A stretch of 64,000 nucleotides of DNA, taken from NCBI GenBank assembly GCA_947454705.1, contig CANGKZ010000010.1:1-64000 (forward strand), given 5' to 3'. The notes beneath the pieces are model-generated. The model did not search any database, was not told where the DNA came from, and saw only the letters and a list, made by a program, of their open reading frames with translations. Of the stretch, positions 12,304 to 19,902 are shown piece by piece. Each line of letters starts with the position of its first letter. Positions within the stretch are counted from its first letter, which is position 1. Made by a program: the position numbers and the translations under genes. The DNA comes from Verrucomicrobiota bacterium. GTDB lineage: Bacteria > Verrucomicrobiota > Verrucomicrobiia > Limisphaerales > UBA9464.

Positions 12304-13221
12304 GTGAATTTCTCCGTCACCGAGCTGACCCAGTCCCTGCTGGCCAGCTACCGCCAGCACGGCGGCATCAATCATTTGGACGGCGTGAACCTGCCCTCGA
12401 AAGGGGCGGTGGTGGACATCACGCGGGATCTGCTGCGCGTGGTGTTTCCCGGATTCTTCGACGACCACGTCATCCACTCCTCCGAGCTGAAGGCAGAGAC
12501 CGCGCTGTTGCTCGATTCCATCGCCGGACGGCTGGAGGACGAGTTGTACAAGAGTCTCAACTGCTTCGGCTGCCCGGAATCCGGCGACAAGGATCCGCGT
12601 CACGCCGCGCACTCCATGACCGCCGAATTCCTGCAGCAACTGCCGCGGGTTCGCGAGTTGCTGCAGACCGACGTCGAAGCCGCATTCCAGGGAGACCCTG
12701 CGGCCCGGACGCGCGAGGAGGTCATCGTGGCCTACCCGTTCATCGAGGCCGTCGCCGTCCACCGCCTCGCCCACGTGCTGCACGAACGCGGAGTGCCCTT
12801 GATTCCACGCATCATGAGCGAGTGGGCCCACGGGCGCACCGGCATGGACATTCATCCGGGCGCACGCATTGGCACCCATTTCTTTGTCGATCATTGCACC
12901 GGCACAGTGATTGGTGAAACCGCCGAGATCGGCGCCCACGTGAAACTCTACCAGGGCGTCGGACTGGTGGCCCGATCGCTCGCCGCCGGACAGGCCCTGC
13001 GCGGACAGAAGCGGCATCCCACCCTGCAGGATCATGTGACGATCTACGCCAACGCGACCATTGTGGGCGGCGACACCGTCATCGGCAACGGCAGCACCGT
13101 CGGCGCGAACGTCTTTTTGATGCACAGCGTCCCCCCCCACAGCCTGGTGTTGATGGAGGACATCCGGGTCCGCGTGCTCAGCAAGCAGGAGAAAACGACC
13201 GCGGTGGATTTCCAAATTTGA
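12304..13221 (+). CDS. cysE: Serine O-acetyltransferase (EpsC/CysE type)
   Basis: 305 residues. Makes O-acetylserine from acetyl-CoA and serine, the first step of cysteine synthesis. The N-terminal helical region (about 1-180) ends in RIMSEWAHGRTGMDIHPGA, which is highly typical of SAT enzymes. The hexapeptide left-handed helix follows (GARIGTHFFVDHCTGTVIGE and KRHPTLQDHVTIYANATI). The start is GTG at 12304; no better ATG exists upstream of the conserved head. It is longer than E. coli CysE because of the N-terminal extension, as in Bacteroidetes-type SATs. An O-acetylserine sulfhydrylase gene is not in the window. Confidence 0.93.
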   Translation: MNFSVTELTQSLLASYRQHGGINHLDGVNLPSKGAVVDITRDLLRVVFPGFFDDHVIHSSELKAETALLLDSIAGRLEDELYKSLNCFGCPESGDKDPRHAAHSMTAEFLQQLPRVRELLQTDVEAAFQGDPAARTREEVIVAYPFIEAVAVHRLAHVLHERGVPLIPRIMSEWAHGRTGMDIHPGARIGTHFFVDHCTGTVIGETAEIGAHVKLYQGVGLVARSLAAGQALRGQKRHPTLQDHVTIYANATIVGGDTVIGNGSTVGANVFLMHSVPPHSLVLMEDIRVRVLSKQEKTTAVDFQI

Positions 13222-13309: not shown

Positions 13310-14263
13310 ATGAGCGCCCCCACGTCCCAGCCCGCCCGGTTTCCGTACCGGGTTGAGATTGGCGTCGCCCTCGGCGCCTGGCTCGCGTTGTTCCACTGGC
13401 TCGGGAATTCCACCTTTGGCTACGTGGCCACGCCGTCGTTGTTTGGGTGGCTTTATCCCCTTTACGATGCCAACCCGGATGACGGCATCGGGCTGCTCGC
13501 CCCCTTTGTCACGATCTGGATGATCTCGCAGCGACGCAAGGAGCTCGAGTCCCTCACCTGGAACCCGTGGCTTCCCTCGCTGGGATGGGTCGTGCTCGGA
13601 CTTCTTTTGCATCTGGCGGGATATCAGGTTCAGCAGGGACGCGTCTCCGTTTTGGGCATGATCGTGGGATTGTACGGCATCACCGGGCTGTACTGGGGAC
13701 GCGATTGGCTGAAGCTGGCCCGCTTCCCGTTTGCGATGCTGCTGTTCTGCATTCCCACCAGCGTTTACCTGGCGGCAGTCACCTTTAAACTGCGCCTGTT
13801 CGTGGCCACGGTGGCCACCGGATTCTGCACCGAAATTCTGGGCATGCACATCCTGCGCAAGGGCACGGAAGTGTACAACGTGGGGCCGGATGGATTGCCG
13901 GGATTCCGTTTTGAAGTGGCGGCGGCCTGCAGCGGGATTCGCAGTCTCACCGCGGTTCTGCTTTTGGTACTGGTGTACGGGTTCCTGTTTTTCAGATCCC
14001 CGATTCGCCGTCTGATTTTGTTGCTGAGCGCCCCCGTGCTCGCGGTGCTGGGAAACATTTTTCGACTGATCACCGTGTTCATTGTCGGCGAATCCCTGGG
14101 CCAGGAGGCCGGTGCGAAAATTGAAACCGGATTCGGATTCGTGACCTTCATCGGCGTGGCCATTGGCGGGACGCTCCTGCTTGGACGCTGGCTCAAGGAG
14201 AAGCCCGAGAATCCGCCGTCAGCCCCCGAGCCCGCCGCCTCCACCGCATCCTCCCCGGCATGA
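13310..14263 (+). CDS. Exosortase-family membrane protein, copy 1
   Basis: 317 residues with about eight membrane helices. The catalytic Cys is Cys207 in AAACSGIRSL and the conserved Arg is Arg252 in GNIFRL. Where exosortases normally carry a His, about 20 residues after the Arg and four before a Gly (HxxxG), this copy has Glu272 (IETGFG). Exosortases are transpeptidase-like enzymes that cut C-terminal sorting tags at the inner membrane. A TTG at 13289 would add seven residues, but the ATG at 13310 is preferred. The stop overlaps the next ATG (ATGA), so it is translationally coupled to the EpsI-like gene. It is clearly paralogous to 15617-16570 (shared GNSxFGYVxxPSxFGWL head). Confidence 0.9.
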   Translation: MSAPTSQPARFPYRVEIGVALGAWLALFHWLGNSTFGYVATPSLFGWLYPLYDANPDDGIGLLAPFVTIWMISQRRKELESLTWNPWLPSLGWVVLGLLLHLAGYQVQQGRVSVLGMIVGLYGITGLYWGRDWLKLARFPFAMLLFCIPTSVYLAAVTFKLRLFVATVATGFCTEILGMHILRKGTEVYNVGPDGLPGFRFEVAAACSGIRSLTAVLLLVLVYGFLFFRSPIRRLILLLSAPVLAVLGNIFRLITVFIVGESLGQEAGAKIETGFGFVTFIGVAIGGTLLLGRWLKEKPENPPSAPEPAASTASSPA

Positions 14264-15024
14264 ACCTCGCGAGCCTCAAACCCACTCTCGCGGTCCTGAT
14301 TCTCATCGGGATCACCGCCGGCTTGATCAGCAGCCTCCGCTCCCGCCAGACGCTCGGGCAACCTGGTCTGCCCATCGCCAAGGTGGCGCTACACGACGAA
14401 GAGGGCGGAGTCGCCCGGCCGGAATCCATCCAGTTTCCAAAAACCATTCCCGGATTCACCTTCACCAATGCGCCGGTTTCGAAGGCGGAATTGGACTACC
14501 TGCCGCACGACACCACGTTCGGCCGCGGGCAGTACACCTCCGAGGACGGGGCCTGGTCTGCCGCGGTCAGCGCCGTGCTGATGGGAACCGACCGCACGAG
14601 CATCCATCGGCCGGAATACTGCCTCCAGGGCGTGGGCTGGGAAGTGGGGCAACCGCGGCTTCAACAGATCCGGTTGGCCGATGGATCCGTGCTGGAAGTC
14701 CAACGCATCGACACCCTGGGCAAGCAGACCGTCGGGGGACGCCAGATGGAACTCGCCGGCGTGTACGTGTTCTGGTTTGTCGCAGATGGGCAGCGCACCG
14801 CCAGCCACTGGAAGCGCCAGTCGGCGATCATCCGGGATTTGCTGACCAAAAACTCGCTTCCCCGCTGGGCCTACGTTTCCTTCCTCACCACCTGCCTTCC
14901 CGGGCAGGAGGATGACATGTTCGAAAAAGTCAGCGGTCTGATCGCCAAATGCGAACCGTTGTTAACCCGAAAGCCGGGAACTCTGGCCCAGGGAACTGAA
15001 GCCACCTCGAAGGGACTGCGGTGA
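14260..15024 (+). CDS. EpsI/DUF3485-like exosortase-associated protein, copy 1
   Basis: 254 residues with an N-terminal membrane helix (about 5-26) and an exported domain. The EpsI-family signature is seen as DRTSIHRPEYCLQGVGW (around residues 110-126), with the DTTFGRGQY segment before it and YVFWFVADGQRTASHW after it. EpsI proteins always accompany exosortases and extracellular polysaccharide genes; their exact biochemical role is not settled. The ATG overlaps the exosortase stop, and its own stop overlaps the GTG of the GNAT gene, so all three are probably made together. Confidence 0.85.
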   Translation: MNLASLKPTLAVLILIGITAGLISSLRSRQTLGQPGLPIAKVALHDEEGGVARPESIQFPKTIPGFTFTNAPVSKAELDYLPHDTTFGRGQYTSEDGAWSAAVSAVLMGTDRTSIHRPEYCLQGVGWEVGQPRLQQIRLADGSVLEVQRIDTLGKQTVGGRQMELAGVYVFWFVADGQRTASHWKRQSAIIRDLLTKNSLPRWAYVSFLTTCLPGQEDDMFEKVSGLIAKCEPLLTRKPGTLAQGTEATSKGLR

Positions 15025-15545
15025 GCGACCCTCGTTCCCTCGTGGAAACGCCCCACATTCGTCCCGCAACCCCTGCTGATGCCGAGGTCATCCGGGATTT
15101 CAATCTGGGTCTGGCGCGCGAAACCGAGTCGCTCGAATTGGATCCCGAAATCGTTCTGCGCGGGGTCACTGCCCTGTTGAAGGATTCCTCCAAGGGACGC
15201 TATTTCGTTGCGGAGATCGACGGACAGGTGGTCGGCCAGTTGATGCACACGTTTGAATGGAGCGACTGGCGGGATGGCATGTTCTGGTGGCTTCAGAGCG
15301 TGTTTGTTCACCCCGACTTCCGATCCCGGGGAGTGTTTACCGCGCTTTATCGGCATCTGGAATCGCTGGCACGTGAGGACGGTGGAGTCTGCGGGCTTCG
15401 GTTGTACATGGAGCACGCAAACCACAAGGCCCGCAGCGCCTACCTCCGACTGGGACTGTCCCCGGCGGGTTACGAGGTGGTTGGGTCACCGGACTGGCGC
15501 CCGCGCCAGACCCCGGCCAACACGCCTGGTGTACCAAAAAAGTAA
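15021..15545 (+). CDS. GNAT-family N-acetyltransferase
   Basis: 174 residues. GNAT fold motifs: acetyl-CoA-binding motif A in SVFVHPDFRSRGVFTAL (around residues 92-108), then a helix and the LYMEHANHKARSAYLRLGL segment typical of motif B, where the Tyr probably acts as general acid. The start is GTG at 15021, overlapping the EpsI stop (GTGA). It sits exactly between the two exosortase-EpsI modules, so it may modify a sugar or protein of the same surface pathway. The substrate is unknown. Confidence 0.88.
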   Translation: MSDPRSLVETPHIRPATPADAEVIRDFNLGLARETESLELDPEIVLRGVTALLKDSSKGRYFVAEIDGQVVGQLMHTFEWSDWRDGMFWWLQSVFVHPDFRSRGVFTALYRHLESLAREDGGVCGLRLYMEHANHKARSAYLRLGLSPAGYEVVGSPDWRPRQTPANTPGVPKK

Positions 15546-15579
15546 GGCTTGCGGACCCGTTTCCGCACGTCTCTGCTCT

Positions 15580-15606
15580 CGCCTCCGAATTCCAAGTTCG
15601 GAGGCG
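15580..15606 (+). promoter_or_regulatory. Hairpin just upstream of the second exosortase start codon
   Basis: A perfect 10-bp stem (CGCCTCCGAA, loop TTCCAAG, TTCGGAGGCG) ends 10 nt before the ATG at 15617, within the 71-bp gap after the GNAT gene. The T-tract is poor (GTTT), so it could be a weak terminator, a processing site or an element that controls access to the ribosome. Confidence 0.45.
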
Positions 15607-15616
15607 GTTTGAAGCA

Positions 15617-16570
15617 ATGGACTTAACTCCCGACAGGACCCGTTCGCCAGCATTCCCGAATCTGGGAGTGTTCGCAGTTCTGTTTGGCGTCTGGTGTCTG
15701 TTTTTTCACGTCGTCGGCAATTCCAGCTTCGGATACGTCCACTCTCCTTCCTTTTTCGGCTGGCTGACCGGCTGGTACCAGCTCGCCACGGTGGGGGAAT
15801 CCGGCGATGAACTCTGCCCGCTGATCCCGTTTCTGGTCGCGCTCCTGCTCTGGCTCAAACGCGATCAACTCGCCGCCGCCCCGAAGCAGGTCTGGCTTCC
15901 CGGACTGGCGCTCGTGGCGCTCGGAGTGTTAATCCACGTGGCCGCCTATCTGGTCCAACAGGTCCGCATTTCCGGCCTTGCCTTTCTCATCGGCGGGGCG
16001 GGATTCATGGCCGCACTTTGGGGGCCCCGGTTCCTGAGGGTGATCGCGTTCCCCTGGTTCCTGTTGATTTTCGCCGTCCCGCTCGACGCCTACACCAACT
16101 CGGCCACCTTTCCGCTTCGTCTGCTTTCGACCACGATTTCGGCGGGATTCTGCAAGGCGGTCCTCGGGCTCAAACTGGTTCAGCAAGGCACCACCGTTCT
16201 CCAACCCGCCACCACCACCTCGCCCGGATTCCACTTCGATGTCGTGGCCGCATGCAGTGGCATCCGAAGCGCGTCGGTCATTTTGCTGATTTCGCTCGTT
16301 CACGGGTATCTTCACCTGCGGACCGTTGCCTCGCGCGCGGTGCTCGTCTTTGCGGCCGTGCCTCTCGCGGTCTTTGGCAATATCGTCCGACTGATCGTGG
16401 TCTTTGTGGTGGGAGATGCCTTTGGCGAGGCGGCCGCCAAAACGATTGAAACCCGTTTTGGATTCATCACCTATGCCTCCGCCCTGCTCGGAGTGATCCT
16501 GATCGGGCATTTCCTACGGATCCGTGAAAAGCGGCGGGAAAACACCATCGAGCCCAGGCCCGCATCATGA
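15617..16570 (+). CDS. Exosortase-family membrane protein, copy 2
   Basis: 317 residues, multi-spanning, with about eight hydrophobic helices. The catalytic Cys is Cys213 (VAACSGIRSA) and the conserved Arg is Arg258 (GNIVRL). The third family position is Glu278 (IETRFG) rather than His, as in copy 1. Spacing is identical between the copies (Cys to Arg 45, Arg to Glu 20). It shares the HVVGNSSFGYVHSPSFFGWL-type head with copy 1, indicating duplication followed by strong divergence. The stop overlaps the ATG of the second EpsI-like gene. It presumably processes a different set of tagged exported proteins; none is found in the window. Confidence 0.9.
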   Translation: MDLTPDRTRSPAFPNLGVFAVLFGVWCLFFHVVGNSSFGYVHSPSFFGWLTGWYQLATVGESGDELCPLIPFLVALLLWLKRDQLAAAPKQVWLPGLALVALGVLIHVAAYLVQQVRISGLAFLIGGAGFMAALWGPRFLRVIAFPWFLLIFAVPLDAYTNSATFPLRLLSTTISAGFCKAVLGLKLVQQGTTVLQPATTTSPGFHFDVVAACSGIRSASVILLISLVHGYLHLRTVASRAVLVFAAVPLAVFGNIVRLIVVFVVGDAFGEAAAKTIETRFGFITYASALLGVILIGHFLRIREKRRENTIEPRPAS

Positions 16571-17310
16571 ACGCTTCCTCCCCGATGGTTGTGATGGTGC
16601 TGTCGCTCGCGCTCATCAGCGGCGGATGGGGTGCGCTTATGCGTGTCAAATCGCGTCAACACGCCGGGATTCCCGGGGTTCGCCTTTCTCCTATTCCCAC
16701 GCGCGACAAAACCGGGGCACTCGTGCGAAGCAACTCCGTGGCCCTGCCCCTGTTCGCGCCCGGTTACCGAGCCAATCCGGGCGACATTGACGACACGGAA
16801 CTCCGAACCCTTCCGCCAGACACCACCTTTGGTCGCGTGATCTACGAAAAGCCAGGCTCCCAGCTGAAGGTCCAAACCAGCGTCATCCTGATGGGGGCAG
16901 ACCGCACCAGCATCCATCAGCCCGAGTTCTGCCTGACCGGCAATGGCTGGGCCATTCGCGACCGCTCCACCCGACGCATCCCGTTCGATCGTATCGAAGG
17001 AGGAGGACTGGACGTCCGCCGGTTTGATTCCCGGATCCAATTCCGGAATCCGGACGGCACCGCTCAGGAAGCCGGTTCCGTGTATGTTTTCTGGTTTGTT
17101 GCCGATGGCCAGTGGACTGCCAGCCATTGGACACGTACCTTGTGGATGACGCGCGACCTTTTGACCGACAACGTGCTGCAGCGCTGGGCCTACATCAGCT
17201 ACTTCGCGGTTTGCGAGCCCGGCAAGGAGGATGCCACGTTTAATCAAGTGTGCGATTTGATCCGCACCACGGTTCCGAAGTTTCAGATCTCCGGCATCCG
17301 CACCCAGTAA
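16567..17310 (+). CDS. EpsI/DUF3485-like exosortase-associated protein, copy 2
   Basis: 247 residues. There is one N-terminal helix (about 5-23), then an exported domain with DTTFGRVIYEKPGS, the signature DRTSIHQPEFCLTGNGW and YVFWFVADGQWTASHW. The last stretch is almost identical to copy 1, while the rest has diverged. The ATG overlaps the exosortase stop by 4 nt (ATGA), so translation should be coupled. The partner exosortase is copy 2. Confidence 0.85.
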   Translation: MNASSPMVVMVLSLALISGGWGALMRVKSRQHAGIPGVRLSPIPTRDKTGALVRSNSVALPLFAPGYRANPGDIDDTELRTLPPDTTFGRVIYEKPGSQLKVQTSVILMGADRTSIHQPEFCLTGNGWAIRDRSTRRIPFDRIEGGGLDVRRFDSRIQFRNPDGTAQEAGSVYVFWFVADGQWTASHWTRTLWMTRDLLTDNVLQRWAYISYFAVCEPGKEDATFNQVCDLIRTTVPKFQISGIRTQ

Positions 17311-17388: not shown

Positions 17389-18786
17389 ATGTTAAGCCGG
17401 CAACGGCAACTTCAGACCAAGCTGCACAAGCTGCTCGACGCCTTCCTTTTCGGGATCGCGTTTTGGCTGGCTCATTGGGTGCGTTCCCTGCCCTTGTTTG
17501 AGGTGCGGATCCTCGATTTTTCCGCCTACCGCTGGCTGCTCCTGGTCATCGTTCCCCTGGCTCCACCCGTTCTGGAGCTCGGCGGATTTTACCGTCGCCC
17601 GCTCCTCTTTTCCCGCGCCGACACCCTTTGGCAGCTGGTGAAGGGCGCCACCTGGATCAGCTTCGCCTTCATCACCATGCTGTTCTTCAGCAAGCAGGAA
17701 GGTGCACGCGGGTTGCCGTTCCTGTTCATCCCCATCGCAGCCGGACTCGTGATGGCCAAGGAAGAACTGGCGCGTCGATGGAGCCGCGCCCGGTTCGGTC
17801 GCAACGCCTCACGCCGTCGCGTCATCGTTCTCGGCAGCCCCACCCGGGGGGCCCGCTTCTCCGGGGAAACCGACCAACTCGAGGACGCCCTGCGCATCGG
17901 AAGCCTGGGTGACATCGAAGTCGTGGCCCACGCCGACCTCGGCAAGACCAAGCCGAACGAACTGGCCAACCTCCTGCACGACACCTCGGCCAACGCCGTC
18001 ATTATTTCTCCGCGGCAGGCGCTGTTCGGCGATATCGAGCAAGCCATCCAGATTTGCGAACTCGAAGGCGTGGAAGTCTGGCTGCTGGCCGACTTCTTCC
18101 AAACCCGACTCTCCCAAGCATCGGCCGATGACCTAAACGGCAACCCGGTGCTCGTCTTCCGCACCGGTCCCGATGCCTCGTGGCAGGCCTTGGCAAAAAC
18201 GGCGATCGATTTCGTCGGTGCCGTCGTGCTCCTGGTGGCGACGTCGCCCGTCCTTCTGTGTGCCGCGCTGGCGGTCAAGTTCACCTCCCCCGGCCCCATC
18301 CTCTTCCGCCAGCAACGCGCCGGCTTGAATGGACAACCCTTCACCATGCTGAAGTTCCGCACCATGGTGACCAATGCCGAACAGCTCAAACAGGAGCTCG
18401 CCCAGCTCAACGAAATGAGCGGCCCCGTGTTCAAGGTCACCAACGATCCGCGGATTACCAAAATCGGAAGGTATCTTCGTCGCTACTCCATCGATGAACT
18501 GCCTCAACTTTGGAACGTGCTCAACGGAGACATGAGCCTCGTCGGGCCGCGTCCGCTGCCGGTGGACGAGGTGAAACACTTCGATGACCCCGCGCACCGC
18601 CGCCGCCTCAGCGTCAAACCCGGTCTGACCTGCCTCTGGCAAATCAGCGGACGCAACAACGTGAAGGACTTTGGCGAATGGGTCCGGCTCGATCTGGAGT
18701 ACATCGACAACTGGTCCCTCTGGCTCGACATCAAGATCCTCATCCGGACCGTGCCCGCCGTGTTCGTGGGTGCGGGAGCGAAGTGA
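17389..18786 (+). CDS. Polyprenyl-phosphate sugar-1-phosphate transferase (exopolysaccharide initiating enzyme)
   Basis: 465 residues. The N-terminal part has several membrane helices and a CoA-binding-like middle domain (VIVLGSPTRGARF region, about 143-250). The C-terminal bacterial sugar transferase domain (about 260-460) has SPGPILFRQQRAG, FTMLKFRTMV, RRYSIDELPQLWNVL and DMSLVGPRPLP, all characteristic of the WbaP/polyisoprenyl glycosylphosphotransferase class. It transfers a sugar-1-phosphate to undecaprenyl phosphate and so starts a surface glycan repeat. Exosortase loci of this type usually carry such a gene, which supports a coupled glycan and protein-sorting system. Sugar specificity cannot be told. 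Confidence 0.93.
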   Translation: MLSRQRQLQTKLHKLLDAFLFGIAFWLAHWVRSLPLFEVRILDFSAYRWLLLVIVPLAPPVLELGGFYRRPLLFSRADTLWQLVKGATWISFAFITMLFFSKQEGARGLPFLFIPIAAGLVMAKEELARRWSRARFGRNASRRRVIVLGSPTRGARFSGETDQLEDALRIGSLGDIEVVAHADLGKTKPNELANLLHDTSANAVIISPRQALFGDIEQAIQICELEGVEVWLLADFFQTRLSQASADDLNGNPVLVFRTGPDASWQALAKTAIDFVGAVVLLVATSPVLLCAALAVKFTSPGPILFRQQRAGLNGQPFTMLKFRTMVTNAEQLKQELAQLNEMSGPVFKVTNDPRITKIGRYLRRYSIDELPQLWNVLNGDMSLVGPRPLPVDEVKHFDDPAHRRRLSVKPGLTCLWQISGRNNVKDFGEWVRLDLEYIDNWSLWLDIKILIRTVPAVFVGAGAK

Positions 18787-18813: not shown

Positions 18814-18900
18814 GATTTGAAGTTTGGAGAGTGATGTCTAGGTTCGGTGCTCCGTGATGTTGGTTCGGTTTTCTTCCTGTTTCTACGACTCCTGTTTTCC

Positions 18901-19902
18901 ATGGCCACTTCTCCAAAACGCAAAGCCTCCCCCGCAACGTCCTCGAAATCCAAAGGCGCCTCCAAGGCCGCCCCGGTTTCCGTCGTCACCGGCGGCGCAG
19001 GATTTCTTGGATCGCACCTGACCGACCTGCTGCTCTCACGTGGACACAAGGTCATCAGTATCGACAACCTGGTCACCGGCTCGGTGCAGAACATCGACCA
19101 TCTCTCGGGCAATCCGAACTTCCGCTTCATCTGCCAGGACGTCACCGAATTCCTCTTTCTTCCCGGACGCGTTGATTACGTCTGGCACTTTGCCTCCCCG
19201 GCCAGTCCGATCGATTATCTGGAACTCCCGATCCAAACGCTCAAGGTCGGCTCGCTCGGCACGCACAAGGCGCTCGGCCTCGCCCGCGACAAGGGCGCGC
19301 GATTCCTCATCACCTCCACCTCCGAAATCTACGGAGACCCGCTCGTTCACCCGCAGCCCGAGTCCTACTGGGGCAACGTGAACACCATCGGACCGCGCGG
19401 CTGCTACGACGAATCGAAGCGCTTCGCCGAGGCGCTCACGATGGCCTACCACCGTCAGCACAACATCCCCACGCGGATCGTTCGCATCTTCAACACGTAC
19501 GGCCCGCGCATGCGTCGCAATGATGGCCGCGTGGTGCCTGCGTTCATCAGCCAGGCGCTCGCCAACAAGCCCATCACCATTTTTGGTGACGGCAAACAAA
19601 CCCGAAGCTTCTGCTACTACTCCGATCTGATCGAAGGCATCTACCGACTGATGATGAGCGAGACGAGCGACCCGGTGAACATCGGCAATCCGCATGAGCT
19701 CACCATGCTGCAATTTGCCGAGGAAATCATCGCGGCGACCGGATCGAAGTCGAAGATCGTGCACAAACCACTGCCCCAGGATGACCCGAAGCAGCGCCGC
19801 CCCGACATCACCCGGGCCAAGGCACTGCTCCAGTGGGAGCCGAAAGTGACGCTGGCCGAAGGCTTGAAGAGCACGATCGAATACTTCCGCCGCACGCCCT
19901 GA
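18901..19902 (+). CDS. UDP-glucuronate decarboxylase-like NAD-dependent epimerase/dehydratase
   Basis: 333 residues. A basic Lys/Ser-rich head (about 1-24) precedes an extended SDR fold with [11 protein letters not shown] (Gly31, Gly34, Gly37 bind NAD), the catalytic Ser/Tyr/Lys set in [17 protein letters not shown] and [12 protein letters not shown], and the [17 protein letters not shown] segment diagnostic of UDP-xylose synthases (UXS). The expected reaction is UDP-glucuronate to UDP-xylose plus CO2, supplying sugar for the neighbouring glycan pathway. The ATG at 18901 is preferred to the upstream GTG at 18847, whose extra residues are hydrophobic and unlike the family. Confidence 0.9.

Follow-up and report, generated by a model that had tools for sequence, protein, structure and literature searches.

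Two anciently diverged exosortase-EpsI modules with glutamate in place of the proposed catalytic histidine in a Limisphaerales operon

Introduction

The described exosortases closest to those examined here are of the EpsH/XrtA type, multi-pass membrane proteins with CSGxR and N-x2-R motifs that are encoded together with an EpsI partner in exopolysaccharide loci, in genomes that also encode PEP-CTERM proteins (PMC1569441). Three exosortase motifs were called invariant by Haft and colleagues in 2006: Cys-x-Gly, Asn-x2-Arg and His-x3-Gly (PMC1569441). The XrtD (VPLPA-CTERM) and XrtW subfamilies are a second point of comparison, with an XrtD profile that also spans an EpsI-like part. Archaeosortase A belongs to the same superfamily but is archaeal and has PGF-CTERM substrates; it has Arg rather than His as the third essential residue, and the site can therefore vary.

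We analyzed a window of 64,000 nucleotides from the genome of a Verrucomicrobiota bacterium of the order Limisphaerales (5.4 Mb in 80 contigs), in which two exosortase-EpsI modules lie in tandem. These modules share the listed features of the EpsH/XrtA type, but both exosortases carry Glu in place of the His of His-x3-Gly, and unlike XrtA they occur as two tandem copies that score 98.7 to 108.9 bits against a cut-off of 208. None of the XrtA, XrtB, XrtC, XrtD, XrtV or XrtW subfamily cut-offs was reached, the best match being the 108.9 bits to XrtA. The window proteins also fall far under the curated XrtD and XrtW cut-offs and have their two domains in separate, overlapping genes, although three relatives (G002, G004 and G008) do fuse exosortase 2 to EpsI 2.

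Results and Discussion

Organization of the locus and family membership

The first-pass annotation had read positions 13310 to 17310 as exosortase-EpsI-GNAT-exosortase-EpsI, followed by a sugar transferase and a UDP-xylose-synthase-like gene, and this order holds throughout, with all genes on the forward strand. Upstream lies a cysE-like serine O-acetyltransferase gene (12304..13221), with NCBIfam cysE/EpsC matches below cut-off, whose position is conserved in the family (G001, G003, G005, G006, G007, G008, G014, G017 and G020). Module 1 comprises exosortase 1 (13310..14263; PF09721, E 1.4e-37) and the DUF3485 protein EpsI 1 (14260..15024; PF11984, 39.3 bits; motif DRTSIHRPEYC), and is followed by an accessory GNAT-family acetyltransferase (15021..15545; PF00583, 57.3 bits, above the Pfam cut-off). 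Module 2 comprises exosortase 2 (15617..16570; PF09721, E 2.9e-35) and EpsI 2 (16567..17310; PF11984, 46.9 bits; motif DRTSIHQPEFC); both EpsI proteins exceed the Pfam cut-off of 26.1 and, at about 23 bits, remain under the TIGR02914 cut-off of 42.8. The operon continues with an exopolysaccharide polyprenyl glycosylphosphotransferase (17389..18786; TIGR03025, 393.9 bits against a cut-off of 295.6; Pfam Bac_transf) and a UDP-xylose-synthase-like NAD-dependent epimerase/decarboxylase (18847..19902, with a possible ATG at 18901; PF16363/PF01370) that reached no NCBIfam cut-off.

Each exosortase gene overlaps its EpsI gene by 4 nt (ATGA at 14260 and at 16567), as had been noted from the initial reading. 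The GNAT gene groups with module 1 in this genome because it overlaps EpsI 1 by a further 4 nt (GTGA at 15021) and is separated from exosortase 2 by 71 nt. That gap folds into a strong hairpin (approximately 15578..15608, forward strand), which we rejected as a conserved regulator since the corresponding region (15545-15617) does not keep it in G001, G006, G007 or G020; a promoter and terminator scan returned nothing above chance.

The paired genes had been described as related but strongly diverged, and the alignments agree: the exosortases are 41% identical (E 8e-77) and the EpsI proteins 40% identical (E 3e-57), each pair being homologous over its full length. Both exosortases pass Pfam Exosortase_EpsH (129.9 and 122.3 bits, cut-off 25.7), and with TIGR02602 the first passes at 106.1 bits and the second, at 105.0, falls just below the cut-off of 105.55. 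Both carry CSGIR and a GNIFR or GNIVR motif, and the Cys and Arg of these motifs are invariant across 62 aligned sequences of the family. The genome encodes four exosortases in total, the tandem pair plus one on contig C26, which adjoins an UpxY-type antiterminator, and one on C21, which is an exosortase-EpsI fusion.

The exosortase model, although confident at a pLDDT of 92.1, matched no solved structure, and no solved relative was found by sequence either. The likewise confident AlphaFold2 model of EpsI 2 (mean pLDDT 94.8) returned a match list dominated by one Mog1/PsbP/DcrB-like arrangement, the best matches being DcrB, SciW/EagT6, LpqN, Mog1, Tsi3 and PsbP, with VIA Z scores of up to 8.3, near the usual noise level, and a Foldseek E value of 2.2e-3. 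In this predicted structure EpsI/DUF3485, listed in Pfam as of unknown function, resembles a DcrB/Mog1/PsbP/EagT-like fold. The resemblance to SciW and EagT6, which bind their partners' membrane segments, invites the idea that EpsI may handle the tag helix.

A core exosortase of the order

In an alignment search of 217 genomes of the order (completeness of at least 85%), most contained a strong match to the operon-type exosortase, and among the 46 genomes with a single exosortase it was the sole one in 45. At 20 loci read from other families, EpsI lay beside the exosortase in 19 and a sugar transferase followed it in 17, with the UDP-xylose-synthase-like gene present in 10. The type encoded in the window operon is the core exosortase of Limisphaerales, linked to an exopolysaccharide operon. 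Two copies were found, among the matches listed, only in the window genome (G000) and in G002, G004, G006, G008 and G031. The G031 copies are identical over the compared stretch, with zero branch lengths, and because of this identity they may represent one gene assembled twice.

History of the two modules

Gene order at this locus differs among members of the genus. One (G006) has the arrangement of the window; in G002 and G004 the GNAT is absent, and module 1 precedes a module 2 whose exosortase and EpsI are fused; G001 and G007 have cysE-GNAT-module 2, and G003 and G005 cysE-module 2. Two genomes of the related genus g8 (G014 and G020) have a single module of the module 1 lineage, placed between the GNAT and the sugar transferase, and genera g2 (G008, G015) and g9 (G017) carry the module 2 lineage. 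The exosortase tree supports a module 1 clade (99/97), its grouping with g8 (91/93), and a clade of module 2 with g2 and g9 (100/98), such that the two module lineages form separate clades that are older than the genus; the EpsI trees are less resolved. In trees of the neighbouring sugar transferase and UDP-xylose-synthase-like genes, g8 is the sister group of the genus and g2 falls outside (86/85). This pattern is what a duplication in the family would leave if it preceded the split of these genera and copies were lost afterwards, and an old lateral or tandem acquisition of the second copy may be an alternative origin. Exosortase and EpsI share one reading frame in L044 (G002), L045 (G004) and L056 (G008), a natural fusion in the module 2 lineage.

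Both modules are under purifying selection, with dN/dS of 0.11-0.21, ratios that are rough because dS exceeds 1. We rejected a recent, decaying duplicate on the separate old lineages, these dN/dS values and the 40-41% identity; both modules are intact, and among the relatives we saw some with a single module and none with a decaying copy. The ancient module duplication suggested by the first-pass annotation, or an old acquisition of a second copy, is supported by separate, supported exosortase lineages that each have single-copy relatives in other genera and that are both constrained.

The same comparisons bear on the placement of the GNAT, from which a modified product shared by the modules had been proposed. 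An account in which both modules and the GNAT carry out successive steps of one pathway, with the GNAT modifying a shared product, could draw on the GTGA overlap between EpsI 1 and the GNAT and on the identical gene order in G006. However, the GNAT usually adjoins cysE in relatives: in G001, G007, G014 and G020 it separates cysE from a lone module, and the locus lacks it both in two-module G002 and G004 and in one-module G003 and G005. On this synteny we rejected the GNAT as an obligate component of the tandem; the same pattern tells against modification of a shared product and leaves a successive-step pathway very improbable.

Glutamate at the third proposed catalytic position

In the motif alignment, both window exosortases (AKIETGFG in copy 1 and KTIETRFG in copy 2) read Glu-x3-Gly where the 2006 triad has His-x3-Gly, as does every family member sampled. 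Their membership in the exosortase family by homology stands because later family models do not demand His-x3-Gly, and the window genome's other two exosortases, on C26 and C21, retain the His. Both forms occur across the order and even within one genus, g82 (Glu in G180, G181 and G189; His in G161, G171 and others). A tree built without the columns of the site itself implies at least five changes at the third position, two of them forced by strong branches, and outside the order the residue is His in 28 of 29 relatives, from which His is most likely the ancestral state. The exception outside the order, L271 of G283 in the same phylum, has CSGLH for CSGxR, with His for Arg, in addition to Glu for the third His, and is possibly inactive or a further variant. 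Within the order, L156 is the sole exosortase of G206 and of the operon type; neither His nor Glu is readable at its third site, and the genome carries 24 tags.

Sorting tags and the two modules

No PEP-CTERM match lies in the window, in agreement with the initial observation that it holds no tag-bearing substrate, and about 35 PEP-CTERM proteins are encoded elsewhere in the genome (37 TIGR02595 tags at E ≤10, 29 above cut-off), so C-terminal sorting tags do exist in this organism. Read directly, the tails have three parts, namely PEP (PEA or PET in some), a hydrophobic helix and an end rich in Arg and Lys, and they can be sorted roughly into PEP-x-T-W/Y and PEP-x-E subtypes. The stretch G000:C8:1-3132 contains four PEP-CTERM paralogues in tandem (L010, L019, L024 and L028), whose tails read PEPSE/PEPSK; another lies on C42, and the group is apparently expanded in this species. 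We rejected the C8 family as specific cargo of the tandem, since one-module G005 and G007 have weak homologues of it and two-module G002 has none.

It had been proposed that the two modules serve two distinct classes of tag, an idea in keeping with the NCBIfam exosortase subfamilies that have dedicated tags (VPDSG for XrtC, VPLPA for XrtD) and with the loose split between the PEP-x-T-W/Y and PEP-x-E subtypes. We also searched 1.3 Mb of the genome de novo for tripartite tails; the search picked up under half of the tags that the profile detects in those stretches, and found PEP-like tails only and no second recurring motif. Because of that low sensitivity, a small second class besides PEP-CTERM may exist. 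Both subtypes are found in one-module (G003, G007) and two-module genomes alike. Nor does tag number rise with the second module, the two-module members of the genus (G002, G004 and G006) having 25, 37 and 21 PEP-CTERM matches and the one-module members (G003, G005 and G007), at the same threshold, 40, 32 and 20. Because relatives with one module are no poorer in tags and have the same subtypes, and one tag class was found, the proposal is unsupported and we consider it improbable.

Do the glutamate forms act on tags?

As a check on the link between exosortases and tags, families f24 and f7 contained neither in 13 of 13 genomes. We compared tag numbers in single-exosortase genomes with a readable third residue (16 Glu and 28 His): the medians were 2 tags per genome for Glu and 4 for His, each ranging up to 37, with no significant difference in number (Mann-Whitney p 0.34; family medians p 0.94), and we discarded the idea that the Glu form predicts few tags. 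Most Glu-only genomes have 0-4 tags and few have many, but three (G180, G078 and G215) have 37, 13 and 7. That Glu-only genomes keep as many as 37 tags suggests that the Glu enzymes process PEP-CTERM proteins. Three other genomes of the order (G101, G203 and G222) have 26, 12 and 11 PEP-CTERM tags and no detected exosortase, perhaps through draft gaps or another processing route, and because such genomes occur, gaps in the drafts could also hide a His-type exosortase in Glu-only genomes.

These counts also weigh on a different role for the Glu forms, in which they would no longer sort PEP-CTERM proteins and would instead help to make or export exopolysaccharide together with EpsI and the sugar transferase, leaving the tags to the His-form enzymes on C26 and C21. 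The description of His-x3-Gly as invariant (PMC1569441), the exopolysaccharide-like operon and the 0-4 tags of many Glu-only genomes are consistent with such a role; the tag-rich Glu-only genomes, the lack of a significant difference between the two forms and the invariant Cys and Arg of the family alignment argue against it, and we judge it unlikely. A further reading, which we hold tentatively and at somewhat less than even odds, is that the third catalytic position has changed repeatedly between His and Glu within one syntenic, order-wide family, and that the Glu enzymes are still active PEP-CTERM proteases, Cys-Arg-Glu membrane peptidases of which this genus would have two side by side.

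Proposed function and implications

We hypothesize, with a probability of roughly 55%, that the two modules derive from the order's core exosortase-EpsI pair, as ancient paralogues or through an old tandem acquisition, and that their exosortases act on PEP-CTERM proteins with a Cys-Arg-Glu site and overlap in part in their roles. At the outer face of the inner membrane, each enzyme would accept secreted proteins by way of the C-terminal PEP-CTERM tag (a PEP motif, a transmembrane helix and a basic end) and would cleave them using the conserved Cys and Arg, with Glu in place of His as the third proposed catalytic residue. EpsI would serve as a membrane-anchored partner on the outer side, and the cleaved protein would be passed on toward the surface or exopolysaccharide. 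The two copies would share PEP-CTERM substrates, either with some redundancy or with each suited to different proteins or conditions, and the two His-type exosortases elsewhere in the genome would work alongside them. The recurrence of the exosortase-EpsI-sugar transferase order across Limisphaerales counts in favor of this hypothesis, and the lack of a substrate gene beside the pair counts against it.

By sequence comparison, this genus carries exosortase-EpsI modules of the core type that doubled long ago and have Glu where the proposed active site has His. Sequence conservation is the ground on which a Cys-Arg-His triad was proposed, and the exosortase mechanism rests on that triad. A large natural family with Glu for His, in which the operon is unchanged and PEP-CTERM proteins are kept in the genomes, allows the part played by the third residue to be tested directly, and having two copies in tandem offers a test of gene dosage and specificity within one organism.
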